A stretch of 32,036 nucleotides of DNA, from positions 1-32,036 of the forward strand of contig MPNE01000039.1 of the NCBI GenBank assembly GCA_002238865.1, written 5' to 3'. Each line of letters begins with the position of its first letter. The stretch's first letter is position 1. Positions 1 to 28,009 of this stretch are shown here, piece by piece. The notes below the pieces were generated by a model, which had not been told where the DNA came from, ran no database searches, and saw nothing but the letters and a program-made list of their open reading frames with translations. Source of the stretch: Gemmatimonadetes bacterium bin94 (GTDB taxonomy: Bacteria > Gemmatimonadota > Gemmatimonadetes > Longimicrobiales > Gaopeijiaceae). A program made the position numbers and the translations under genes.

Positions 1-1159
<1,159 letters not shown>

Positions 1160-1163
<4 letters not shown>

Positions 1164-2212
1164 GCCCGCGCCGGTTCACCACCCCGAGACAGGCGGCCGA
1201 CAGGAATCAGCAGGTCGCCGACGGCCTCGTCGCCTGGCGGGGAGCCGCGCCACGCCCCTCGACCGCCCTTGCCATGCGACGTACCCTGTCCCGGGAGCGC
1301 GTCGACCCTCAATTCCGCGACACGGCGACGCACCCGGGCCAGCAATTCCCGGTCCAGCGCGGCCATGTCATCGGCCGAGAGTCCCCGGACCGGCACTCTC
1401 AGGAGTTTCCCGTCGATGCCCCCGGGGACGCCTGCCAAAGCCTCGTTCAGCCGGCGGGCCACCGTCGCCGCCCCCCCTCCCGTCGCCTCTACGGGGGCGA
1501 GGCTCACGGCCGCCCGCGCCTGTACCGGCCAGAAGCGAACCTCGCCCGAGTCCAGCCGTGCGGTGATGAAGCCCTTGTCCGTCGCCGCCTCTTCCCAGGG
1601 ATCCTGGCCTATGCGCTCCAGGGATCCCGAGTAGCTGATCCGATCCGCGACCCGGGTGTGGGCATGATTGGAGCCTAGCGCCACGTAGTCCCAGCCCCGG
1701 GTCCGGACCCCGTGCGCGTGAGAGGCTTCGGAGGCCAGAGCCGCGTGGATCACCAGGACATTCCACCTGGCCGCCGGATCGGGGGCCAGCTTCAGGTTGC
1801 CCGAGGTCATCAACGCCGCGTGGGGAACGAGAGTGACGCTGACCTCGCCGTCCCGCAGGCCGAGGCGCCTCACCCTCGTGGACGCGACCTCTACACGGTC
1901 CTGGGCGCCGATCACCGTCAACGGCCCGTGCCGGCGCGGATCCAGGGGTGTGTCGCGCACTCCCGCCACTACCGCGACGACAACTTCGGGGAGGGTGTCG
2001 CGAAGTCTGCGGACCGCGCTTGTGAACGTGGCGATGGGAGAAGCCGTAACGTCGGGATGGTCGAACACGTCTCCCGCGATGACCACCAGCTCCGGGCGGA
2101 GTTCGGCGACTCCCTGAAGGGTGGATTCGAAGATCCGCAGCACATCCGCACCGCGCTCCGCCCCCTGACCATCGTAACCCAGGTGCAGGTCCGAAAGGTG
2201 AGCCACTTTCAC
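1160..2212 (-). CDS. SbcD/Mre11-like metallophosphoesterase with altered GNHD motif
   Basis: The 350-residue protein matches the calcineurin-like fold of SbcD/Mre11/YhaO nucleases. Motif I is DLHLG (D8, H10). Motif II is GDVFD (D48). Later ligands appear as H156 in VLVIHAAL and H183/H185 in GSNHAH. The family signature ISYSGSLERI follows at 192-201, then KGF. Motif III, normally GNHD, reads GVRD at 84-87, so the Asn metal ligand and the catalytic His are replaced by Val and Arg. The C-terminal 130 residues form the usual variable capping region, ending in a basic, disordered-looking tail. The start is GTG at 2212, overlapping the upstream stop as GTGA; the stop overlaps the next ATG. Known family members work with an SMC-like ATPase in processing DNA ends. 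Nuclease activity here is doubtful, so no gene symbol is assigned. Confidence 0.85.
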
Positions 2213-3552
2213 GAGACGCTCCGTTCTCCTGAAGCATCACCCGGTACCGGGGCCATCGTCATCCCCGCAAGGGGTCCCGGTGACTGCGACGGCTGGCTGA
2301 AGCACCAGAGTTCGTCCCCCCGCGCCGCCAGGCGAGGAGGACCCGCCACCGCGGGCACGGCGCCCAGGTAGCGTGAAACATCAAGGCCCGCCTGCCGGCC
2401 CGCTTCCACCAGCATGTCGGGATTGCCGCCGCGGCGCCGGCGGATCCACACCCGGAAGACCTCCGCTTCGCATAGCGCGGCCAGCAACTCTCCGAGTGGA
2501 AGCGTGTGTGCCAGCGAGTCTCCCAGCGCCCCCCACTCTGCGACCACGGTATGGCCGGGAACCTCCGGAACGGGTGACCGGACCAAAGCACCCTCGCCCC
2601 AGCGGAAGCCTTTCGCGGCCAGCTCCGCAACTGCGGTGTCCGTCTCGTACACGCTCCACTCGCGGTCTTCCCCGGGAATAAACCAGCTCCCGGCGCCGAT
2701 GAACAATACGGGTTCGTCGGGCCTCAGCGTACCAGCCACGGCTCGCCTCCAGTCTCCGCCGGGAGGCGGATCGACCGCAAGGTCGCGTCCGGATTCGACG
2801 AGCAGCCGTACCGCCTCTTCGGGAACCGCCGTCTGCCACACTTCGAAACGAAGCTCGGGACGTCCGGGCTCCCGCAACACCAGCCGCCGCCGAGGCACAC
2901 GATCAAAGATCCAGCCCTGAAACCGTGCCCCGGCCGACGCCAGCACCGTTGCCCCCAGGAAGGCGGTGACCGCCAACAACGGCTGGCCCAGAAAGGCGTC
3001 GACCAGCACACAGCCGATGACGACCCCCAGGATCCCGGCTGCACCCACCTGCCTCTTTGCGCGGATTCCCAGAGTCTCGGCAAAGCTGCCGAGGCCGGCC
3101 CATACGCCCCCGGCAAAGTACGCGGGCAATGCGGCGGTCAGGGCGAGTCCCGCCCCCTGAGCGGCCGCCGTCCCGCCGAACCCGTCCAGCGCTTCCCACA
3201 GAGCCGCATAGCCGGCTCCGAGGAGGAGTGCGACCAGGAGCCCCATCCATCCGCGGGCCGCCGAGGTAACAGTCTCGTCGTCCCGGGAGACCGTGCCCAC
3301 CCAAAGTCCGGCAACAAGCGAAGTCGCAGCCACGCCGAGCAGCACTCCGAACGCGCGCAACAAGCCCTGGGAATCGCCCAGAAGGAGACCCGGCAGGGAC
3401 CCCGAGTCGCCTTCGGTGCTCAACACCTGCCGGACCTCCCGCAACAGGCCCTGGTCATCGTAGAGGAGGACACCGGCAGCGGTGCCCAGCGCGGTCGCGA
3501 CGGCGATCCCGACCAGCAGCGATGGGATCCAGATGGTCCGCCGCGCATTCAT
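2209..3552 (-). CDS. Six-TM hypothetical membrane protein with cytosolic C-terminal domain
   Basis: I do not recognise this 447-residue protein. The N-terminal half is hydrophobic, with about six predicted membrane segments near residues 10-31, 67-88, 101-122, 132-155, 170-188 and 190-208. The C-terminal half (about 215-447) is soluble, with alternating hydrophobic and charged stretches and a short glycine-containing FIGAGSW at about 286-292. That motif faintly recalls a nucleotide- or SAM-binding turn but is not enough to name a family. The start is ATG at 3552, overlapping the stop of the flavin-reductase-like gene as ATGA; its own stop overlaps the GTG of the SbcD-like gene. Fixed overlaps on both sides make it an obligate member of this operon, so it may tether or regulate the Mre11/Rad50-like pair at the membrane. 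That role is speculation. Confidence 0.75.
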   Translation of the reverse strand: MNARRTIWIPSLLVGIAVATALGTAAGVLLYDDQGLLREVRQVLSTEGDSGSLPGLLLGDSQGLLRAFGVLLGVAATSLVAGLWVGTVSRDDETVTSAARGWMGLLVALLLGAGYAALWEALDGFGGTAAAQGAGLALTAALPAYFAGGVWAGLGSFAETLGIRAKRQVGAAGILGVVIGCVLVDAFLGQPLLAVTAFLGATVLASAGARFQGWIFDRVPRRRLVLREPGRPELRFEVWQTAVPEEAVRLLVESGRDLAVDPPPGGDWRRAVAGTLRPDEPVLFIGAGSWFIPGEDREWSVYETDTAVAELAAKGFRWGEGALVRSPVPEVPGHTVVAEWGALGDSLAHTLPLGELLAALCEAEVFRVWIRRRRGGNPDMLVEAGRQAGLDVSRYLGAVPAVAGPPRLAARGDELWCFSQPSQSPGPLAGMTMAPVPGDASGERSVS

Positions 3553-4148
3553 CGGCCTTCCACCCCCCTCCTTGTGGTGGTCAGCGCCGCGTCGAGGGTC
3601 TCATATCGGCTTCGGAAGAAGAGGAGGGGATCACCCTCGGCACCGGCGCCGTCCAGTACCTTGCCGACCAGGATGAGGTGGTCACCGGCTTCGAACGTCC
3701 GGTAGAGGCCGCACGCGATCCAGGCCAGCACCCCTTCGAGGATCGGACCACCACCCTCCTTGACGGTGTAGGCGATGCCGTCGAAGCGGTCCTCCCGGTC
3801 CATTCCGGCAAAGCGCACGGCCGTTTCCGCCGCGCCGCCGCCCAGGATGTTCACCGCGAACGTGCCGCTGGCGAGGATGGCGCCCAGGGAGGCCGACTGC
3901 TCCGACACGCACACGAGGACGAGCGGCGGATCCAGCGACACGGACGTCACCGAGTTCGCCGTGAGCCCCACGGGAGCGCCGTCCCGATCCACCGCGGTCA
4001 CGACTGTCACACCGGTGGGGTAGTGGCCCATGATCTCGCGGAAGCGGTTGGAATCCAGCAACGTGTGCGACGGATCCTCGCCCCCCGCACGATGCCGTGG
4101 TGTGCCGACTGCTCTCGGTTCGCCGGGCATTGGAGGTTCGTGGTTCAT
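3549..4148 (-). CDS. Flavin reductase-like FMN-binding split-barrel protein
   Basis: The 199-residue protein fits the flavin reductase-like domain family (FMN-binding split barrel), which reduces free flavin with NAD(P)H or serves as the reductase partner of flavin monooxygenases. Diagnostic stretches are MGHYPTGVTVVTA near residue 40, then GLTANSVTSVSLDPPLVLVCV, the Ser-rich SEQSASLGAILASGTFAVNIL, and GDHLILVGKVL near the C-terminus. The first 35 residues are Pro/Arg-rich and lack the family pattern, so a downstream start is possible. The ATG at 4148 is supported by its ATGA overlap with the rsgA stop. No monooxygenase partner is encoded nearby. The gene sits between rsgA and the membrane protein, so its physiological partner cannot be read from context. 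Confidence 0.88.
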   Translation of the reverse strand: MNHEPPMPGEPRAVGTPRHRAGGEDPSHTLLDSNRFREIMGHYPTGVTVVTAVDRDGAPVGLTANSVTSVSLDPPLVLVCVSEQSASLGAILASGTFAVNILGGGAAETAVRFAGMDREDRFDGIAYTVKEGGGPILEGVLAWIACGLYRTFEAGDHLILVGKVLDGAGAEGDPLLFFRSRYETLDAALTTTRRGVEGR

Positions 4149-5041
4149 GCTAACTCCGAGAGTATCGTCCGGTAGCTCCGATAGCGGAGCCTCTGAATGC
4201 GCCCCTCCTCGACCGCCGTCCGAACGGCGCAGTTGGGCTCATGAGCGTGCCGGCAGTCCTTGAAGTGACACTGCCCAAGGAAAGGACGGAAGTCCACGAA
4301 ACATCGGTCGAGTGCCTCCGGTGCGACATCCCCGAGCCCAACATCGGAAAACCCCGGGGTGTCCGCCACATGGCCGCCTCCGGCCAGGGGAATCAGGGAG
4401 CTGGAAACCGTCGTGTGCTTACCCGTCTTCGACCGTTTTCCGACGCGCCGCGTCCTCAGTGCGAGCGCGGGCTCCACCGCGTTGAGGAGTGAAGACTTCC
4501 CCACCCCCGACGGCCCCGCCAGCGCCGACGACCCGGCGTGGATCACCTCGCGGAAGGCGTCGATCCCTTCGCCGCTCACCACCGACGTCGACAACACGGC
4601 ATAGCCCGCCGTCCGATACTCCCTCGACAGATCGGCCGCCACGGCGCGGCCCGAACTCAGATCCACCTTGTTGAGGACGAGACAGCTCTCCATCCCACCC
4701 GAGTCGCCCATGACCAGCATGCGATCGATCACGCTGCGAGACGGAGGCGGGTCCGCAACCGACGCCACCACCAGAAGACGGTCGAGGTTGGCCGCCACCA
4801 CCTTGGCCATCCGGCCCCCCATGGCCCGCCTGACCAGATGCGTCTCCCTTGGCAGCACGGACTCGATGACGTGTCCGCCCCCATACACGGCCTCGACCCC
4901 GACCCGGTCCCCCACAACCACCTTGCCCGGGACCGCCCCCGAGTGCTTGAGCCGGCCCCTCAGAGACGCCTCTACCGTGCCCGCGGCGGTGCGGACCGTG
5001 TACACGCCGCCCACGGTCTCGATGACCTGCCCGGTCGTCAC
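4145..5041 (-). CDS. rsgA: Small ribosomal subunit biogenesis GTPase RsgA
   Basis: RsgA is a circularly permuted GTPase that checks late 30S subunit maturation in the cytoplasm. The 298 residues show an N-terminal OB-fold (about 1-75, with VVVGDRV). The permuted GTPase motifs follow in the expected order: G4 NKVD at 124-127, G1 GPSGVGKSS at 176-184, and G3 DTPG at 227-230. A C-terminal zinc site is formed by C258, C263, His265/267 and C271. Length and order are typical. The start is GTG at 5041; a GAGGG stretch lies 6-10 nt upstream, and an ATG a few codons further up is out of frame. It is the first gene of the five-gene overlapping operon. A 14-bp perfect palindrome lies about 43 nt upstream. 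Confidence 0.96.
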   Translation of the reverse strand: MTTGQVIETVGGVYTVRTAAGTVEASLRGRLKHSGAVPGKVVVGDRVGVEAVYGGGHVIESVLPRETHLVRRAMGGRMAKVVAANLDRLLVVASVADPPPSRSVIDRMLVMGDSGGMESCLVLNKVDLSSGRAVAADLSREYRTAGYAVLSTSVVSGEGIDAFREVIHAGSSALAGPSGVGKSSLLNAVEPALALRTRRVGKRSKTGKHTTVSSSLIPLAGGGHVADTPGFSDVGLGDVAPEALDRCFVDFRPFLGQCHFKDCRHAHEPNCAVRTAVEEGRIQRLRYRSYRTILSELA

Positions 5042-9377: not shown

Positions 9378-11885
9378 TCAGCGGCCCGGCGTGAGCATCA
9401 GGCGCTCCGCGGCGACAGACTCCACCCGGTCTCGCGAGTAGAACACCGGGAAATAGCGATCGTTCGCCCAGGGCTCGAAGAGATTCTCGTAGAAGGGCGA
9501 GTCCGGGTCGCCCGACTGTCCGGGCGTGTTGGAGCCGACGGCGCGGTCCCAGTCCCCCGTGTCCACGATGATCCGGAACGACGCGCCCGACGTCTGGTTG
9601 TCGCCGCTCCCCGAGTTGTTGAGGGTGTAGCTGTTGCCGCCGCGCGGCAGCGGGCCGACGGTCAAGCGATCGGCCAATTCGCCGGACACGGCCCGCGAGA
9701 GCGGGTGGAAGATCGTGGCGTGCTTGTAGTCGGACTGACCGTACCGCCACCCGTCCATGTCGGCGCCGAGCTTCACGCGCAGCTCGGCAACCGCCTCTTC
9801 CAGGCTGCGCAGCAGCACCGCATCGCGCCCCGCGACGGGATCGTCGCCGAATTCGCCGCCGGGAGCGTTCAGGTGGGCGACGATCTTGACCATCGCCATG
9901 CCGCGCAGGAGACCGCGGGCGTTCGCGGGGATGAAGAGGGCGTTGACGTTGCCTCGCAACCGGGCCTCGAAGGCGTTGTAGATCCCCGCCGGGACGGATT
10001 CGGGAGCCAGCACGAAGTCCCAGGCCAGGAGTAGCTCGCGGGCCCGTTCGGTGTCGCGGTCCGCGGCCGCGACGTGGCGAAGCATGGGCACAATGGTGCG
10101 CGCCGGGATGGAAAGGTAGTCGGTCTGCAGGGCCATCATGTCGGCCATCGTGTGGCGGCGTCCCGAGCCGAGGACCTCGGAAGCGCGTGCCCACCGGTAG
10201 GGGTCCGACCACTCCCAGCCGATCGCGTCCCGGTACGGGTAGTCCGGCGGCGTGACGTGGTTGTTCGCCGTGGCGAAAAAACCCTCTCCCGGGTTGAAGA
10301 CACTGGGCTTGGCCCTGATGGGCAGGTAGCCGTCCCATTCGTAGCGGCCATCGCCCGGCACGGGAACCAGGCCGGACCAGTTGCGGCGCACCGGCGCGAT
10401 GCCCACGGCCTGCCAACCGATGTTCCCCTCCCTGTCCGCCCAGATCATGTTCTCGCCCGGGATGTTGGAGTAGTTGCAGGCCTCCACGAACTCTTCCCAC
10501 GTCTTCGCCTGGTCCATGCGCAGGCTCGCCAGGTAGGGGGCGCCGCCGGGTTCCCGCCACGCCGCGCGCACCGCGTATGCGACGTTGTTGTCGGTGTCCT
10601 CGTAGACGACCGGACCATGGCGGGTGTACTTGAACTCGGCACGGTGCGCGGCCCGACCCTTCACCGGGATCTCCTCGGTGATGACGGTCATCCGCTCCCA
10701 CCCGTCCCTGTAGCGGTAGCGATCCGGGTCGTCCGGGTCCGTTTCGTAGACGTACAGATCCTCGCCGTCAGTACGGAATACGGTCAGGCCCCAGGCCCCG
10801 TACTCGTTGTGGCCGATGCTGACGCCCGGGATTTCGGGCTCTCCGCCGCCGATCACATTCCAGCCGGGCGCGACGAGGTGGACCCAGTAGCGCAGCGACG
10901 GTGACGACTGGGCGCGGTGGGGATCGTTGGCCATGAGGGGGAAGCCGCTTTCGCTCAGGCGGCCGCTGACGACCCAGTTGTTGGAGCCGATGTCCTCCTG
11001 GTCCTGCCAGGCGAGTGCGTCGCGCCAGCTGGGGGCATCCGGCCAGCCGGGCTCCCCGCCGCGCCGATCCCCCGGGCCCGCCGCCGGCCCGCCGCGCCGC
11101 GCCGCCGCCTCCAGCCGTGCGAACGCCTCCTCGTCACCCCGGTGTTCCGCGACGATGTGCTCGGGACGGAACCGGACCTGACTTCGGAAGGCGTTGTAGC
11201 GCCCCAGAATGTCCTGGCCGAGGAGCGCGCCGTCGATCGCGGGATCGAGCGCGATGTCCGGCTCCCCCGGATGGAAGTTGGCCACCCGCTTCACGGCCTC
11301 GTCGCCGAGCGCCGCGACCGCCCGCCCGTAGTTCAGTTCGGCGCCGATGTTCCCGAGCAGGCCCTGATGGCGCGAGATCACGACCTCGGGAGTCCACCGC
11401 TGCGGCCGGATACCCAGCAGTTCGAACTCGACGGTCAGCAGCGACGGGTCGGCCTCGGTCTCCGCGATGTACGCGTTCACCCCGTCCACGTACGCGGGAA
11501 TGATCACCGAACCGCGGTCGTGGTAGTGGTTCATCTCCTGCGTCATGTCGCCCCGGTACTTGAAGAGGCGGAAGCCGATGTCGCGCTCCAGTTCGCCCTC
11601 GCCCAGCATCTCCGCGACGGTCCCGGTTGCCTGCGCCCGCCAAACCTCGAACTGGAAGAGACGGTCGCGCGCGGCCGCGTAGCCCTGCGCGAAGAAGAGG
11701 TCGTACTCGTTGCCGGCGTAGATGTGGTTGATCCCCCACCGGTCGCGGATGATCTCGACCGGCTCGGACAGGCCGGGGACGGTGAGGGCGACGGGGGTGG
11801 ACTCGGTCTGGGCGCTGGCGGCTACCGGCACGGCGAGGATGACTCCCAGGGCGAGCACGACGAGCAGGTGGTCACGATCCGGCAT
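9378..11885 (-). CDS. Secreted penicillin acylase family amidohydrolase (Ntn hydrolase)
   Basis: The 835-residue precursor begins with a signal peptide (LLVVLALGVILAVPVAASAQ, residues 7-26), so it acts in the periplasm or outside the cell. It has the layout of penicillin/AHL/cephalosporin acylases: alpha chain (WGINHIYAGNEYDLFFAQGYAAARDRLFQ), a spacer rich in Gly/Arg/Pro at about 255-295, and the predicted autoproteolytic site DIGSNNWVVS with Ser301 as the new N-terminal nucleophile of the beta chain. FPLMANDPHR, GVSIGHNEYGAWGLT and NNSGSGDNQTSGASFR are further family blocks. Known members hydrolyse amide bonds of beta-lactams, N-acyl homoserine lactones or N-acyl amino acids; the substrate here cannot be told. 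AGAGG lies before the ATG, and a GC-rich hairpin sits in the leader. Confidence 0.93.
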   Translation of the reverse strand: MPDRDHLLVVLALGVILAVPVAASAQTESTPVALTVPGLSEPVEIIRDRWGINHIYAGNEYDLFFAQGYAAARDRLFQFEVWRAQATGTVAEMLGEGELERDIGFRLFKYRGDMTQEMNHYHDRGSVIIPAYVDGVNAYIAETEADPSLLTVEFELLGIRPQRWTPEVVISRHQGLLGNIGAELNYGRAVAALGDEAVKRVANFHPGEPDIALDPAIDGALLGQDILGRYNAFRSQVRFRPEHIVAEHRGDEEAFARLEAAARRGGPAAGPGDRRGGEPGWPDAPSWRDALAWQDQEDIGSNNWVVSGRLSESGFPLMANDPHRAQSSPSLRYWVHLVAPGWNVIGGGEPEIPGVSIGHNEYGAWGLTVFRTDGEDLYVYETDPDDPDRYRYRDGWERMTVITEEIPVKGRAAHRAEFKYTRHGPVVYEDTDNNVAYAVRAAWREPGGAPYLASLRMDQAKTWEEFVEACNYSNIPGENMIWADREGNIGWQAVGIAPVRRNWSGLVPVPGDGRYEWDGYLPIRAKPSVFNPGEGFFATANNHVTPPDYPYRDAIGWEWSDPYRWARASEVLGSGRRHTMADMMALQTDYLSIPARTIVPMLRHVAAADRDTERARELLLAWDFVLAPESVPAGIYNAFEARLRGNVNALFIPANARGLLRGMAMVKIVAHLNAPGGEFGDDPVAGRDAVLLRSLEEAVAELRVKLGADMDGWRYGQSDYKHATIFHPLSRAVSGELADRLTVGPLPRGGNSYTLNNSGSGDNQTSGASFRIIVDTGDWDRAVGSNTPGQSGDPDSPFYENLFEPWANDRYFPVFYSRDRVESVAAERLMLTPGR

Positions 11886-20939: not shown

Positions 20940-22400
20940 TTACCAGCGTGAAATCACAACCCGCTGGTCGGTGAAGAACGACACCGCGTCCCGCCCCTGC
21001 GCCTTCAAGTCTCCGTAGAAGGAGTTCCGCGCCCCGCCGAACGGGAAGAACGCCATCGGCGCGGCCACCCCGATGTTGACCCCGATCATCGAGATTCCGG
21101 CGCGGTAGCGGAACTCCCGGGCGGCGCGGCCCGACCGGGTGAAGATCGAGGCGGCGTTGCCGTATGGGCTCTTCGCCAGCATCTCGAGCGCGGCTTCCAG
21201 CGTCGGCGCCCGCGTGAGCCCGGCGACCGGACCGAACACCTCTTCGCGGCCGATCGGCATCTCGGGCGTCACCTCCTCGAAGACGGTGGGGCCGACCCAG
21301 TGGCCGCGCGGGTACCCCGGCACTTCCATGCGGCGCCCATCCATGAGCAGGCGCGCCCCGTCGCGCTCCCCCTCGTCGATGAAGGCATTCACCCGGTCCT
21401 TGTGGGCCCCCGAAATCACGGGCCCCATGTCCACGCCCTCCTCGAGACCCCGCCCCACCTTCAGCGATGACGCGCCGTCCAGGATGCCCTCGCGGATGGG
21501 CTCGTACGCGTCCCCGACCCCCACCACCACCGACCCGGCCAGGCATCTCTGTCCCGCCGAGCCGAAGACCGAGGCGACCACCGCGTCCGCCACCATGGCC
21601 GGATCGGCGTCCGGCAGGACGATCATGTGGTTCTTCGCGCCACCCAGCGCCTGCACCCGCTTCCCGGCCATCCCCGCGCGCTGGTACACGATCCTGGCCA
21701 CCCGGCTCGACCCCACGAACGAAACCCCCGACACGTCCGGATGGTCGATCAGGGCTTCCACCGTTTCGCGGCGGCCGTGCACCACGTTCAGCACGCCGGG
21801 CGGAAGGCCCGCCTGCGCGGCGAGTTCCACCACGCGCTGGTGCGTGAGCGGATCCTGCTCGCTCGGCTTGAGCACGACCGTGTTGCCCGCGGCGACCGCA
21901 TACGGCCAGAACCAGAGCGGGATCATCACGGGGAAGTTGTACGGGGTGATCACCGCGAAGACCCCGAGGGGCTGGCGCACCGTCTCGCAGTCCACGCCGC
22001 GGGCGATGTCTTCCAGGGTGTCGCCCATCATCAGTGTCGGCATGCCGGCGGCGTGCTCCACGTTCTCGATGCCGCGCTGCACCTCGCCCCACGTCTCGGG
22101 GACGTTCTTGCCGTGCTCGCGCGAAAGACGCACCGCGAGATCGTCGTGGTGCTCGTCCAGCAGCGCCTTCAGGCGGAAGAACACCCTCGCGCGTTCCGCC
22201 ACCGGCGTACGCCGCCAGTCCGGGAAGGCGGCGCGGGCCGCCGCGACGGCGCGGTCGACATCGGTCCTCCCCGAGTCGGGGACCGCGCCCAGGGTCTCGC
22301 CGGTCGCCGGGTCCTCGATTGCAAGCCGGCCTCCGGTCTCGGGCACCACCCACTGCCCCGCCACGTAGTTGGCCGAGAGGCCGTGCGCGTCCGTCGCCAT
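20940..22400 (-). CDS. mmsA: CoA-acylating methylmalonate-semialdehyde dehydrogenase
   Basis: The 486-residue protein oxidises methylmalonate semialdehyde (or malonate semialdehyde) with NAD+ and CoA to propionyl-CoA (or acetyl-CoA) and CO2. It shows the general ALDH fold: VFAVITPYNFP at 147-157, SFVGSSRVARI at 227-237, and the catalytic Cys286 in GSAGQRCLAG. ALGGAKNH at 251-258, where the usual catalytic Glu of ELGG is Ala, is the marker of this CoA-dependent subgroup. The enzyme serves valine, thymine, beta-alanine and inositol catabolism; with the adjacent aminotransferase, beta-amino acids are the best guess. The gene starts at ATG 22400, four bases after the EVE gene, so the two are probably cotranscribed. 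Confidence 0.95.
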   Translation of the reverse strand: MATDAHGLSANYVAGQWVVPETGGRLAIEDPATGETLGAVPDSGRTDVDRAVAAARAAFPDWRRTPVAERARVFFRLKALLDEHHDDLAVRLSREHGKNVPETWGEVQRGIENVEHAAGMPTLMMGDTLEDIARGVDCETVRQPLGVFAVITPYNFPVMIPLWFWPYAVAAGNTVVLKPSEQDPLTHQRVVELAAQAGLPPGVLNVVHGRRETVEALIDHPDVSGVSFVGSSRVARIVYQRAGMAGKRVQALGGAKNHMIVLPDADPAMVADAVVASVFGSAGQRCLAGSVVVGVGDAYEPIREGILDGASSLKVGRGLEEGVDMGPVISGAHKDRVNAFIDEGERDGARLLMDGRRMEVPGYPRGHWVGPTVFEEVTPEMPIGREEVFGPVAGLTRAPTLEAALEMLAKSPYGNAASIFTRSGRAAREFRYRAGISMIGVNIGVAAPMAFFPFGGARNSFYGDLKAQGRDAVSFFTDQRVVISRW

Positions 22401-22876: not shown

Positions 22877-24067
22877 CTACTCCCTGTCCCCGCCGTCGGC
22901 GTCGGCGACGACACCGACCCGCTCCATGAGCCGGGCCGCGACAAAACCGTCGGACCCGTCCCCAAGGCGCACTCTGAACCAGTCCCCGGCCGCGCCGAGC
23001 ACTCGCACCGGCTCCCCGGCGCCCAGTTCCCGAACCACCTCGCCCCGGCTCCCGGGAGCCGCCCGCAGCCGGATCCCGTCGTTGCGGGGCCGCACGCGGG
23101 CTCCCAGCAACGCAAGGTCGGCCGTCACTTCCGGGAGTGCTCGACGCGGCGGGTCCAGGAACGGATACGGATCCACCGGCCCGCGGGCGTAGAGCCCGAA
23201 GTGCAGGTGCGGCGGTGTGGTGCGCGCGTTCCCGGTGTTGCCAACAAAGCCGATCGTGTCGCCTCGCTCCACCATCTGGCCATCGCTGACGTGCTGGCTG
23301 TCGAGGTGAGCGTAGTACTGGTTGGCCTGATGAACCGTGTCGCGAACCCACACGACCTTGCCGCCGATGTTCGTGACCCGCACGCGGCGCACGCGCCCCG
23401 CAGCCGCGGCCAGCACGGGGGTCCCGCGGGGGGCGAAGATGTCGACGCCGTGATGATCGCGCCGCCCGCCGTCGCGCGCATCTCCGAAGACGCTCTGGAT
23501 CGCGCGCATACCGTGCCCCTCAACCGGGAACCCCAGCTGCGATTCCTCCCTGACGGTCACGCGATAGTTGCCTCCCCGAAGCAGTTCGGGCTGGACGCGC
23601 AGAATGAAGTCGCCACCCCGCCAGGGCTCGTAGATGAAGGTCCGGGACAGCGAATCCGACGACACCACAGGCCTGAAGCGGTCGCCCTCGTCCGCCGGAA
23701 TGCGAAACAGATCGATGAACAGGCGGGTGCCTTCGTCCGAGTCGAGCGAAACCTCGAACTCCAGCTTGCGTCCCCTGGGGATGCTGACCCGGTAGGCCAC
23801 CGCCGAGGGGTGCTCGGCCGTGATGTAGCCCTCTTCCCGGAACGGCAGGGCTACGGTCGTGGGACTGTGGAGCGCCTCGCCGCCGACCCGCGTCCAGTCC
23901 CTGCCGAGCGCCGTCTCGGCGAGCCCGGCGTCCGCGAGCGACGCCTGGTAGGCCTCATGGGGTGTGAGATCACGGAAGCTGTCCTGCAACTGCTCCGCCT
24001 GCTCGCAGGCACCGAGCATGGCGGCACCAGCGAGTGGCCAGAACCGGCGTTGCAGTCGTCGATCCAT
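22877..24067 (-). CDS. M23 (LytM-like) peptidase lipoprotein with C-terminal SH3 domain
   Basis: The 396-residue lipoprotein has a signal ending in MLGAC with Cys21. The M23 domain (about 180-305) keeps the zinc site: H205 and D209 in HHGVD, and H287/H289 in HLHFG, with H254 in YAHLD. An N-terminal beta-rich domain (about 75-175) precedes it, and a bacterial SH3 domain (about 325-385) follows, probably to bind cell wall. It may be a peptidoglycan endopeptidase acting at the envelope. It starts at ATG 24067, 27 nt after pckA, and ends seven nt before the EVE gene, so it lies inside the minus-strand block although its function is unrelated to metabolism. Confidence 0.9.
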   Translation of the reverse strand: MDRRLQRRFWPLAGAAMLGACEQAEQLQDSFRDLTPHEAYQASLADAGLAETALGRDWTRVGGEALHSPTTVALPFREEGYITAEHPSAVAYRVSIPRGRKLEFEVSLDSDEGTRLFIDLFRIPADEGDRFRPVVSSDSLSRTFIYEPWRGGDFILRVQPELLRGGNYRVTVREESQLGFPVEGHGMRAIQSVFGDARDGGRRDHHGVDIFAPRGTPVLAAAAGRVRRVRVTNIGGKVVWVRDTVHQANQYYAHLDSQHVSDGQMVERGDTIGFVGNTGNARTTPPHLHFGLYARGPVDPYPFLDPPRRALPEVTADLALLGARVRPRNDGIRLRAAPGSRGEVVRELGAGEPVRVLGAAGDWFRVRLGDGSDGFVAARLMERVGVVADADGGDRE

Positions 24068-24094: not shown

Positions 24095-25663
24095 CTACGC
24101 GGGCCCGGCGGCCCCTACCCCGCCCGTCACCTGCCCAGCGAACCGTTGGAAGTTCCCCTTGAACATAGCAGCTAGCTCCCCGGCAGCGGCATCGTACTCG
24201 CTCCCGTCGGCCCAGGTGCCCCGGGGGAAGAGCACCTCCGGGGGCACCCCGGGCACGCACGCGGGAATGCTCAGGCCGAAGGCCGGATCGACCGTTCGGC
24301 CCACGCCGTCGAGGTCGCCGTTGAGTGCCGCGGCCACCATCGCCCGCGTGTACGCCAGCTTCATTCTGGAGCCCACGCCGTAGCGGCCTCCCGTCCACCC
24401 GGTGTTGACAAGCCACGCGCGGGAGCCGTGAGCACGGATCTTCTCGCCGAGCAGGTCGGCATACACCGTGGCGTGCTGGGGCAGGAAGGGCGCGCCGAAA
24501 CACGCGCTGAAAGCGGCCCGGGGCTCGGTCACTCCGCGCTCCGTGCCCGCCACCTTCGCCGTGTATCCGGAAAGGAAGTGGTACATGGCCTGCTCGGGAC
24601 CCAGCCGTGAAATCGGAGGCAGCACCCCGAATGCGTCAGCCGTGAGGAAGACGACGTTCTCCGGGTGGCCGCCCGTGCCCGAGGGCACCGCGTTGGAGAT
24701 GTAGTCGATCGGGTACGAGGCGCGGGTGTTCTCCGTGATTTCCCCCGAATCGTAGTCGATCTCCCGGGTGCGCTCGTCAAGAATCACGTTCTCGAGGATC
24801 GTCCCGAACATGCGCGTTGCGCGGTAGATGTCGGGCTCCCCCTCCGGCGACAGCCGAATCGTCTTGGCGTAGCAACCGCCCTCGAAGTTGAAGACGCCGG
24901 TATCGCTCCAGCCGTGCTCGTCGTCGCCGATCAGCTGGCGTTCCGGATTCGCCGACAACGTCGTCTTCCCGGTGCCCGAGAGGCCAAAGAAGAGAGCCGT
25001 GTCGCCGCGTTCGCCGATGTTGGCCGAACAGTGCATGGGGAGAACGCCCCGGGCCGGCAACATGAAATTCAGCGCCGAAAAGATGGACTTCTTGATCTCG
25101 CCGGCATACGCTGTCCCGCCGACCAGCACCACCCGTTCGCTGAAGTTGACCACGATGAAGGCGCCGGAATTGGTTCCGTGACGCTTCGGCTCGGCCTGCA
25201 TCGAAGGCGCGTGGTAGACGACGAAGCCGGGCTCGAAGCCTTCTTCTTCGCCCGGCGCGAGCCGCAGGAACATGTTGTAGGCGAAGAGATCGTGCCACGG
25301 GCTCTCCGAGATCACGCGCACGTTGATTCCGTAGCGGGCATCGGCTCCGGCTCTGGCGTCGCGGACGTACAGTTCGCTGTCGTTCAGCCGCCTGATGATG
25401 TCCGCCTTCAGGCTCAGGTAGTGCTCCTCGGCGATGGGAACATTGACGTCGCCCCAGTCTATGATGTCGGCCGTTGCGGCCTCTTGCACGATGAACCGGT
25501 CGTTGGGCGACCGGCCCGTGTGCGGGGACGTCAAGGTGACGAGTCCACCCCCACGGGCGATCCTCCCCGTCCCGAGGCGAAGCGTCTCTTCGTAAAGGTG
25601 AGCGGGCGACAGGTTGCGCCGGATGCAGCGCGTCGGTGTCAGTCCCTGTTGTGTAAGGTCCAC
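24095..25663 (-). CDS. pckA: Phosphoenolpyruvate carboxykinase (ATP)
   Basis: The 522-residue enzyme makes PEP from oxaloacetate using ATP, the entry to gluconeogenesis. The ATP-type family blocks are visible: TGRSPNDRF near the N-terminus, GLSGTGKTTLSA (kinase 1a), IGDDEHGWSDTGVFNFEGGCYAKTI, and FLTADAFGVLPPISRL. The frame is open to a TTG at 25735, but homology starts at about the GTG at 25663, which has GGAGG 11 bases upstream; the first 24 residues of the longer form are unlike the family. It lies 90 nt downstream of maeB with which it is probably cotranscribed, linking malate and oxaloacetate to PEP. Confidence 0.94.
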   Translation of the reverse strand: MDLTQQGLTPTRCIRRNLSPAHLYEETLRLGTGRIARGGGLVTLTSPHTGRSPNDRFIVQEAATADIIDWGDVNVPIAEEHYLSLKADIIRRLNDSELYVRDARAGADARYGINVRVISESPWHDLFAYNMFLRLAPGEEEGFEPGFVVYHAPSMQAEPKRHGTNSGAFIVVNFSERVVLVGGTAYAGEIKKSIFSALNFMLPARGVLPMHCSANIGERGDTALFFGLSGTGKTTLSANPERQLIGDDEHGWSDTGVFNFEGGCYAKTIRLSPEGEPDIYRATRMFGTILENVILDERTREIDYDSGEITENTRASYPIDYISNAVPSGTGGHPENVVFLTADAFGVLPPISRLGPEQAMYHFLSGYTAKVAGTERGVTEPRAAFSACFGAPFLPQHATVYADLLGEKIRAHGSRAWLVNTGWTGGRYGVGSRMKLAYTRAMVAAALNGDLDGVGRTVDPAFGLSIPACVPGVPPEVLFPRGTWADGSEYDAAAGELAAMFKGNFQRFAGQVTGGVGAAGPA

Positions 25664-25753
25664 CGTTTTCAGGCCTCCATACTGCTCTAAATGCCGTCTT
25701 GTGAGAATTCGCCGGTCTGCTGGTGCGCCGGACAACCCGGTAATCTGATCTCG

Positions 25754-28009
25754 TCAGCTCCGGGCGTCTACCGATGCAATGCCGATGAGATGCACGACAT
25801 CGAGAACGCTGCAACCCCTTTGAAGGATGTGAACCGGCTTCCTCATGCCCAGCAGAATCGGACCGATCACGTCGGCGTTGCCCAATTGGGCGAGTAGCTT
25901 GTACGAAGCGTTGGAGGCTCCAAGGGTCGGGAAGACGAGCACATTCGCGGGTCCAGTCAGGTCGCTGAACGGGTACTTCCTCGCAATGATGTGCGGGTCC
26001 ACGGCCACATCGGCCTGCATTTCTCCGTCGACGGCGAGATCGGGTGCCAGACGCTTGATCCAGCCCACGGCCTCGCGAACCTTGGCCGCTTCGGGATGCC
26101 GGACCGACCCGAAGTTGGAGAAGGACAGCATGCCGATGCGCGGCTCGATCCCCAGGTCGCGCACGAACCCCGCAGCCGAGATTGCGATCTCCGCCAGCGT
26201 CTCCGGATCCGGATCGATGTTGACGGTCGTGTCGGCGAAAAAGAGGGGGTCGCGGTCGCGGAAAGCGACCATGTGAAGGCCGGAAACACGCCGCACGGAG
26301 TCGGACGTGCCGATGACGCCCAAGGTCGGTCTGAGGATCTGCGGGTAGTTGGAGTCGATCCCCGCGACCATCGCGTCGGCGTCGCCGGCGGCCACCATCA
26401 TCGCGGCGAAGTAGACCGGCTGATAGGCTCGGGCGCGGGCTTCTGCAAGGGTCAGGCCCTTGCGCTCCCGACGTTTGTGAAAGGCGTCCGCATAGGCGTA
26501 GCGCATCTCTTCAACGGCAGGCGGGTGGATGCACTGCGCGCCGTCCAGGTCGATGCCCAGCTCGGAAGCGAAGCGCTGGATCTTTTCGTCCTTCCCGATG
26601 AGCACGATGCGGGCTGTGCCTTCCTCGAGCACCTGCGCGGCCGCCCTGAGTACCCGCTCATTGTAGCCGTCCGCCAGTACGATGCGGGCGGGCTCCTTGC
26701 GGGCCCTCCCCATGATCCTCTGCATGGCTTCCCTTCCCGGGCCGAGGCTGGCCTCGAGACGATCCCTGTAATCCTCGAGATCGAGGCTGACCCGGGCGAC
26801 GCCCGATTCCATCGCCGCCTTCGCGACGGCCGGCGAGACATGGAGAAGCACCCTGGGGTCGAACGGTTTGGGAATCAGGTATTCCGGTCCGAACTCGAAG
26901 CCGTCGTCGCCGTAGGCCTTCACCACGGACTCGGGCACTTCGTCGCGGGCCAGTTCGGCAAGCGCCCGCGTGGCCGCGAGCATCATCCCCTGGTCGATCT
27001 GCCGCGCTCTCACGTCCAGCGCGCCGCGAAACAGGAAGGGGAAGCCAAGCACGTTGTTCACCTGGTTCGGATAGTCCGACCGGCCCGTGGCCATGATCGC
27101 GTCGTCCCGTATCCGTGCCACCTCTTCTGGCGTTACCTCGGGATCGGGGTTGGCCAGCGCGAAGATGATCGGCCGCGGCGCCATCGACGCCACCATCTCG
27201 GGCGTGATCGCGCCCTTGGCGGCCAGACCGACCACGACATCGGCACCCTCCATCGCCTCCGCCAGGGTTCGGGCCGGGCGGGACGTTGCGAACGGTGCCT
27301 TGTATTCGTTCATCCCCTCCTCGCGCCCCTGGTGGATCACCCCGGTCCGATCCACCATCATCAGATTCTCCGACTTCACCCCCAGGCGCAGGCAGTGGTG
27401 GGCGGTGGCCACCGCGGACGCCCCGGCCCCGACGAAGACCACATTGACATCGCCGATGTCCCGGCCCGTGATCTCCAGGGCGTTCACGAGGGCCGCCCCC
27501 GCGATGATCGCGGTGCCGTCCTGATCGTCGTGGAAGACGGGCACCCGCAAGGTCTCCCTCAGCGTCTGCTCGATGAGGAAACACTCCGGAGCGCGGATGT
27601 CCTCCAGGTTGATGCCGCCGACGGTCGGCTCGAGTAACTGGCAGAAACGAATGACTTCGTGGGGATCCCTGGTGTCGATCTCGATGTCGAAGACGTCGAT
27701 CCCCGCAAACTTCTTGAAAAGAACCCCTTTGCCCTCCATCACCGGCTTTGCCGCCAACGCGCCGATGTTACCGAGCCCCAACACCGCCGTTCCATTGGAA
27801 ACCACAGCGACCAGATTCCCCCGGGCCGTGTAGCGGAATGCCTCCTCCGGGTCATGATGGATGGCCATGCATGGCTCGGCCACGCCCGGACTGTATGCAA
27901 GGGTGAGGTCTCTCTGGGTCGCGACCGCCTTCGTGGGAACGACTTCGATCTTCCCCGGGCGGCCCTCCGCGTGATATCTGAGCGCGTCGCTCTCGAATGC
28001 CGACAACAT
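25754..28009 (-). CDS. maeB: NADP-dependent malic enzyme with phosphotransacetylase-like C-domain
   Basis: The 751-residue protein oxidatively decarboxylates malate to pyruvate, yielding NADPH. The malic domain (about 1-175) has [24 protein letters not shown] and [10 protein letters not shown]. The NAD(P)-binding domain (about 180-330) has [12 protein letters not shown] and [12 protein letters not shown]-terminal phosphotransacetylase-like domain (about 430-751) completes the large MaeB form; in known members this part is regulatory (acetyl-CoA) rather than catalytic. The start at ATG 28009 is preceded by AAAGGAGA. It is the first gene of the minus-strand metabolic block and has a candidate promoter about 60 nt upstream. 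Confidence 0.97.

Follow-up and report, generated by a model that had tools for sequence, protein, structure and literature searches.

The window, meaning the whole stretch of DNA that was analysed, is one entire contig of 32036 bases from a genome of 4.42 Mb that is 97.5% complete. Its first part holds, on the minus strand, genes for an SbcD/Mre11-like protein and its SbcC/Rad50-like partner, whose start codon lies inside the sbcD stop region, together with a membrane protein gene and two conserved neighbours; ordinary housekeeping or metabolic genes lie further along. The features are as follows.

3..1163, minus strand: SbcC/Rad50-like partner without a P-loop, truncated by the contig end; 4-bp overlap with sbcD
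342..584, minus strand: zinc-hook apex and flanking helices, WVRERQDAE...VVQDGRWW...QLEYKP; best-conserved segment of the partner family
462-473, minus strand: CGGC of the zinc hook, within the apex 342..584
864..905, minus strand: Q-loop region, degraded, REEYAAIWFGAGPA (canonical REEFFNTYFTGQKEL); register by eye
1053..1100, minus strand: Walker A region, degraded, GLVAFVAGGDPLWSEF (canonical relatives GLTGIIGPNGAGKST...); register by eye
1160..2212, minus strand: SbcD/Mre11-like protein, 350 aa; predicted Mre11 core fold (nuclease and capping domain) with a degraded nuclease site
1664..1675, minus strand: motif V, GSNH (residues 180-183), GHxH in canonical forms; the first His is Ser181 here
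1745..1747, minus strand: His156, corresponding to the motif IV His, kept in 49/70 clade rows
1952..1963, minus strand: motif III, GVRD (residues 84-87), GNHD in canonical forms; a clade-wide change
2060..2074, minus strand: motif II, GDVFD (residues 47-51), kept
2183..2191, minus strand: motif I, DLH (residues 8-10), metal-1 ligands kept
2209..3552, minus strand: multi-TM membrane protein, 447 aa; degraded MFS/spermidine-synthase-like form, overlapping sbcD by 4 bp
2635-2709, minus strand: degraded SAM-site region of the membrane protein gene
3549..4148, minus strand: flavin reductase, a conserved neighbour that adjoins the canonical pair in other families too
4145..5041, minus strand: RsgA GTPase, a conserved neighbour
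9378-11885: penicillin amidase, an ordinary housekeeping or metabolic gene, as are the four below
20940-22400: aldehyde dehydrogenase
22877-24067: M23 peptidase
24095-25735: ATP-type PEPCK
25754-28009: malic enzyme/phosphotransacetylase

Two runs of C, 56 and 20 bases long, lie at 66-149, at the contig start and inside the glycine-rich linker of the partner. The contig end cuts the partner within this C-rich, glycine-encoding stretch, and the linker is shorter in relatives; the runs are probably an assembly fault over a genuine GC-rich linker, where the contig ends.

Relatives of the SbcD-like protein were sought directly in 59 related genomes, and a scan of 84,980 species returned 210 of them, of which the best 80 were kept as named loci. 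By their titles, these best 80 of 210 comprise 79 from Gemmatimonadota and 1 from Armatimonadota; 68 are members of the window's clade (all Gemmatimonadota) and 12 are canonical. The working alignment of 93 rows consists of 70 rows of the window's clade, 21 canonical rows, one intermediate (L066) and one different SbcD (L069), the last two being left out of all clade counts. In a 90-row tree, which leaves out L094, L069 and L116, a branch supported at 100 sets the clade apart, and a 50-row tree with 28 clade rows, built after removal of the motif III, IV and V columns, recovers it at 100/100. Both trees point to a single origin of the clade.

The first-pass annotation had drawn attention to GVRD at 1952-1963, and the reading is correct: in the minus-strand ORF 1160-2212, GGA GTG CGC GAC encodes G84, V85, R86 and D87. 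The Asn and the His of motif III are both replaced, as it had stated, and the replacement extends to the whole clade, in which Asn85 and His86 each occur in 0 of 70 rows. The Asn site is occupied by A, P, E, V, S, L or I in these 70 rows, never by N, and the His site by R in 67, S in 2 and C in 1; all 21 canonical rows carry N and H. The flanking D87 and P89 are present in 68 and 69 of the 70 clade rows. The positions of D8, H10, D48 and H156 had also been given correctly, and the first three, from motifs I and II, are kept in 69, 68 and 67 of 70 rows.

Motif V needs revision. It had been called preserved, with H183 and H185 as the GHxH pair; the second His is indeed present as H183, but the first has been replaced by Ser181, and H185 is not part of the pair. 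From WDYVALG to Y-x-G-x-x-ER, the window's protein and canonical relatives are of equal length and align with no gaps, which makes Ser181 the first His and His183 the second; of 21 canonical rows, 11 carry Tyr at the site of His185, 8 Ala, and one each Cys and His. A HMMER pairwise alignment with M. jannaschii Mre11 sets H183/H185 opposite HIH by means of a 2-residue gap. This register was dropped in favour of the gapless family alignment, because L108 (ALGHEH) and L110 (ALGHRH) bridge both forms. Across the 70 clade rows, the first His survives in 6 and is missing in 64, where its site holds G (35 rows), S (27), L (1) or C (1); the second His is kept in 66 of 70.

In Pyrococcus numbering, what has been lost is the metal-2 ligand N84 and the catalytic H85, and what has been kept the metal-1 residues D8, H10 and D49. 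With H173, H206 and H208 numbered as in PMC3175470, the equivalent of the metal-2 ligand H206 is lost and that of the metal-1 ligand H208 is kept. The metal-1 set of D8, H10, D48 and H183 is complete in 66 of 70 rows, the exceptions being L068, L101, L122 and L148. All four exceptions retain Arg86, whose conservation is therefore independent of the metal. In L068 (genome G023), which sits on a long branch, even motif I is gone (DLHLG has become NPRLG), and L122 has lost H10 and D48.

The earlier suggestion that metal site 1 may persist with impaired cleavage agrees with these counts (66/70 for D8/H10/D48/H183, 0/70 for the Asn and His of motif III). Sister genomes were inspected for GNHD, which occurs solely in outgroup lineages, so the claim of impaired cleavage stands. 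The window's protein scores 39.4 bits against NCBIfam TIGR00619, below the curated score of 77.65. In E. coli SbcCD, the H84Q mutant of the equivalent motif III His is described as nuclease-deficient in PMC6265447. A loss of nuclease catalysis throughout the clade is well supported as a prediction from the motifs.

The fold appears to have outlasted the active site. An AlphaFold2 model of the window's SbcD-like protein, built with 66 relatives, reached pLDDT 87.5 and pTM 0.84, and its top Foldseek match is Mre11 (3av0_A, E 7.1e-16). In VIA, the model compared with M. jannaschii Mre11 (5dny_C) gave Z 27.2 and rmsd 3.3 over 280 aligned residues, and against the H85S mutant (3dsd_A) Z 26.2 and rmsd 3.2 over 277; Mre11/SbcD structures as a group matched at Z 22-27 over the nuclease and capping domains. 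By this model, the Mre11 core is retained and its chemistry is not. A model of a fused protein reached pLDDT 86.4, and the fold matches listed for it are Mre11-type chains only, extending over at most residues 1-363.

The partner has degenerated in parallel. In the sister families f2 and f3, SbcC has about 800-815 aa with GPNGAGKST, FTGQKEL, ISGGE and LILDE, whereas the unfused partners of the window's clade are smaller, mostly 426-509 aa. Counts were taken over 65 readable partners, leaving out L085, L087, L094, L116 and L129, in which the hook could not be read. Neither the P-loop pattern nor the SGGE signature occurs in any of the 65, and all 65 carry the CxxC zinc hook; this final count used a looser pattern, after a regular expression had overlooked hooks in some rows, and L093 was confirmed by eye. 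The Q-loop, signature and Walker B have decayed too, the three pattern matches to Walker B among the 65 (L096, L110, L112) all lying away from the Walker B place. Pfam finds no domain in the window's partner, its membrane protein or the L074 partner. MAFFT sets the short N-part of the clade partners against a later part of canonical SbcC, and the registers of the degraded P-loop and Q-loop are a judgement by eye; the missing P-loop pattern is unaffected by register. The sequences show that the clade partners have lost their ATP-binding and hydrolysis motifs.

Constraint is inverted in these partners, from the ATPase motifs to the flanks of the hook. In 17 canonical SbcC proteins, conservation over 20-residue windows peaks at the P-loop (0.95), followed by the signature (0.92), Q-loop (0.90), Walker B (0.86) and H-loop (0.84), and is 0.63 for the hook region. 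In 63 clade partners the top 20-residue windows are the two hook-flanking helices (0.87 and 0.83), the C-terminal 130 residues reach 0.43-0.48 and the N-part is least conserved (0.34). When profiles of 16 clade and 8 canonical SbcC proteins were compared, the hook region alone aligned, over 139 columns with 37% identity and a probability of 99.8.

A third gene has decayed as well. The gene that precedes sbcD in L062, L066 and L067 encodes a spermidine-synthase-like membrane protein in which GGGAY and VELDP are present. The sister loci L062 and L066 score 104 and 110 bits against NF037959 (fused MFS/spermidine synthase; cut-off 40), and these members sit between the flavin reductase and sbcD. 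The clade's coupled membrane protein resembles that family but lacks its SAM-binding motifs. A multi-TM gene lies upstream of sbcD in 58 of 70 clade rows, its stop falling -20..+5 nt from the sbcD start in 57 of 70, and GGGAY and VELDP occur in 0 of the 58. Among 57 scanned clade members, 11 match the polyamine aminopropyltransferase model and 5 match NF037959 at E 0.001 (best 9.2e-05 for the latter); the window's own membrane protein has no family match, NF037959 included. The gene is down to 216-287 aa in L103, L108, L110, L124, L126, L127, L131, L136 and L137, and no such gene turned up in 12 of 70 rows, among them L109, L111 and L113 with less than 800 bases upstream. Within the clade, the membrane gene has lost its SAM motifs or its entire soluble domain. 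The canonical L061 has an upstream 5-TM ORF likewise devoid of SAM motifs, so that decay of the membrane gene is not exclusive to the clade.

The order of these losses can be approached through L066 (genome G054), which is sister to the clade with support 95/86 in the 50-row tree. Its SbcD reads GDRDTP and GHHPVA, and its SbcC has GPNGAGKS, ISGGE and LDE. This combination of degraded nuclease motifs with intact ATPase motifs suggests, as the simplest order, that the nuclease was lost first and the ATPase second. The position of L066 is probable and not certain, because long branches meet there. The same genome also carries another pair, of GGNHES type (L157). A flavin reductase lies upstream in many clade loci, in the canonical L058, L061, L062 and L067 and in L066, and this shared neighbour supports orthology by position.

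Selection on both genes is purifying. Nei-Gojobori dN/dS ranges from 0.05 to 0.26 for SbcD or fused proteins (14 close pairs) and from 0.11 to 0.45 for SbcC (9 pairs). The nuclease and ATPase halves form one ORF in 35 of 70 clade rows, and the fused or split state changed at least 5 times on the tree, with L129 and L085 left out. Purifying selection together with coupling and fusion argues for working proteins that act together.

The same genomes carry other Mre11-Rad50-type pairs. The window's genome (G000) has two further pairs with intact motifs, L153 on contig C77 and L071 on contig C78; it contains an E. coli-type SbcCD with GNHDSS, GHIH and GDTGAGKSS, and a second intact pair with GNHDPG, GHVH and GPNESGKST, which we take to be of the YhaO/YhaN type. 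All 23 genus genomes matched the E. coli-type SbcD, with E values no higher than 2.7e-28. A search with TIGR00619 covered 10 genomes, seven of which were read further (G000, G023, G025, G026, G028, G031 and G054); each of the seven has another GNH-type SbcD adjoining a P-loop gene. Six genomes that carry the module possess an additional GNHD pair whose partner has a P-loop. G021 and G001 have an E. coli-type SbcD above the family cut-off, and in G027 the module stands alone, with no other SbcD found by TIGR00619.

The best explanation, to which we give a probability of roughly 0.6, is that the operon gave up catalysis and has been maintained as a hook-linked structural module, which may sit at the membrane; the structural role is what we infer from the pattern of loss and retention. 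The sequences show that an ancestral canonical SbcD-SbcC pair lost its two-metal nuclease motifs and its motifs for ATP binding and hydrolysis, and that purifying selection has nevertheless kept the genes intact and translationally coupled, in many cases as a fusion. On the SbcC side, constraint came to be strongest at the zinc hook and the helices flanking it, and the adjoining spermidine-synthase-like membrane gene shed its cofactor motifs and became coupled to sbcD in most rows. The products may then form a hook-linked dimer of Mre11 fold and coiled coil, a scaffold that would most likely bind or bridge DNA or another partner without cutting and without ATP, and that in most lineages would lie next to the membrane protein. 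Other competent Mre11-Rad50-type pairs of the same genomes would supply the enzymatic work. DNA is the default guess for the bound partner because of the Mre11 fold.

A hook-only role is plausible since, in PMC6969161, the Rad50 hook is described as a constitutive dimerisation module that can be exchanged with an SMC hinge, although the ATPase heads are kept in the complex described there. The bolder proposition, that three former enzymes (membrane spermidine-synthase-like protein, Mre11 and Rad50) have become one purely structural zinc-hook-linked complex, probably membrane-associated, is put forward with more doubt than belief. Several observations count against the scaffold. The dead site of a pure scaffold would need less conservation than is seen here, with metal-1 ligands retained in 66 of 70 rows and Arg86 in 67 of 70. 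The membrane part of the reading is weakened by the 12 of 70 rows without the membrane gene and by the motif-less ORF upstream of the canonical L061. The module is also dispensable: it was not found in 2 of 23 genus genomes (G009, G011) or in 5 of 12 other family genomes, some of these assemblies being incomplete.

The main rival that keeps enzymology would turn the retained ligands into an argument in its own favour. If the protein were a one-metal phosphoesterase or nuclease working without ATP, with Arg86 in place of the second metal ion and the catalytic His, then retention of the metal-1 ligands alongside loss of the metal-2 ligands, and the near invariance of Arg86 together with D87 and P89, would be expected. 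The four rows that keep Arg86 despite lost metal-1 ligands speak against it, however, as do the nuclease deficiency described for the equivalent His change alone in E. coli and the disappearance of the ATPase that normally gates cutting; we regard a one-metal enzyme as distinctly unlikely. It is unlikely, too, that the module serves as a regulator or decoy of the competent pairs, for example by pairing its zinc hooks with active SbcC. The E. coli-type SbcD in every genus genome, the further GNHD pairs in six module-carrying genomes and the selection that keeps the hook would all suit such a role, but the competent pairs come from diverged families distinct from that of the module, G027 carries the module with no other SbcD found by TIGR00619, and genus genomes without the module still keep their E. 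coli-type SbcD.

Ordinary decay, with the genes as pseudogenes on their way out, draws some credit from the stepwise losses in L068 and L122 and from the family genomes in which the module is missing. Against this, frames are open in dozens of species, the dN/dS of SbcD is low, coupling and repeated fusion have been maintained and hooks are intact in 65 of 65 partners, so that decay is largely refuted and very improbable. Nor is GVRD a base-calling slip, since same-genus and same-family relatives read G-x-R-D there: the C runs near the contig start do resemble an assembly fault, but GNHD is missing from 70 of 70 clade rows in many assemblies, and a sequencing or assembly error of one contig is refuted, with next to no probability left.

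Retirement into a hook-linked structural module would have a parallel in the B subunits of eukaryotic DNA polymerases, in which an inactive calcineurin-like metallophosphoesterase fold has turned structural. The family and the complex are different there, and in the present case a coiled-coil hook partner decays alongside. With SbcCD/Mre11-Rad50 of E. coli and of archaea (MR), the module shares the Mre11 core fold, the gene pairing, the coiled coil and the CxxC hook; unlike them, the clade has lost motif III and half of motif V, and its partner has no P-loop and a degraded Q-loop, signature and Walker B. Fused Mre11/Rad50 proteins are already known from PMC3175470, where Mimivirus R555 joins a nuclease-like and then a Rad50-like domain in a single chain, and the fused forms of the clade resemble it in this order and in their repeated origin. 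According to the same paper, R555 has Walker A, Walker B, the D-loop and most metal ligands, the replacements affecting one motif residue and the counterpart of His206. The clade differs from R555, as described there, in having lost the ATPase motifs and in that its fused forms all belong to one bacterial clade.

If the structural reading is true, the hook and the fold would be worth keeping by themselves, without nuclease or ATP. The structural part, comprising fold, coiled coil and hook, is difficult to isolate in its action from an active enzyme, and in this clade evolution appears to have separated it from catalysis. Intact sisters, L066 with its degraded nuclease motifs and intact-looking ATPase, and the clade itself would form a natural series for the study of hook function. 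Among the open PMC papers that literature searches listed, no title or abstract opening dealt with an inactive or jointly inactive SbcCD pair or with this clade. A caution for annotation also follows, in that any 'exonuclease SbcCD' labels on such genes in these genomes would probably not denote nucleases. Finally, one MAG, LCM1.Bin21, holds two copies of the module (L115 and L116) with GESE as motif III, which could represent two strains or a duplication.
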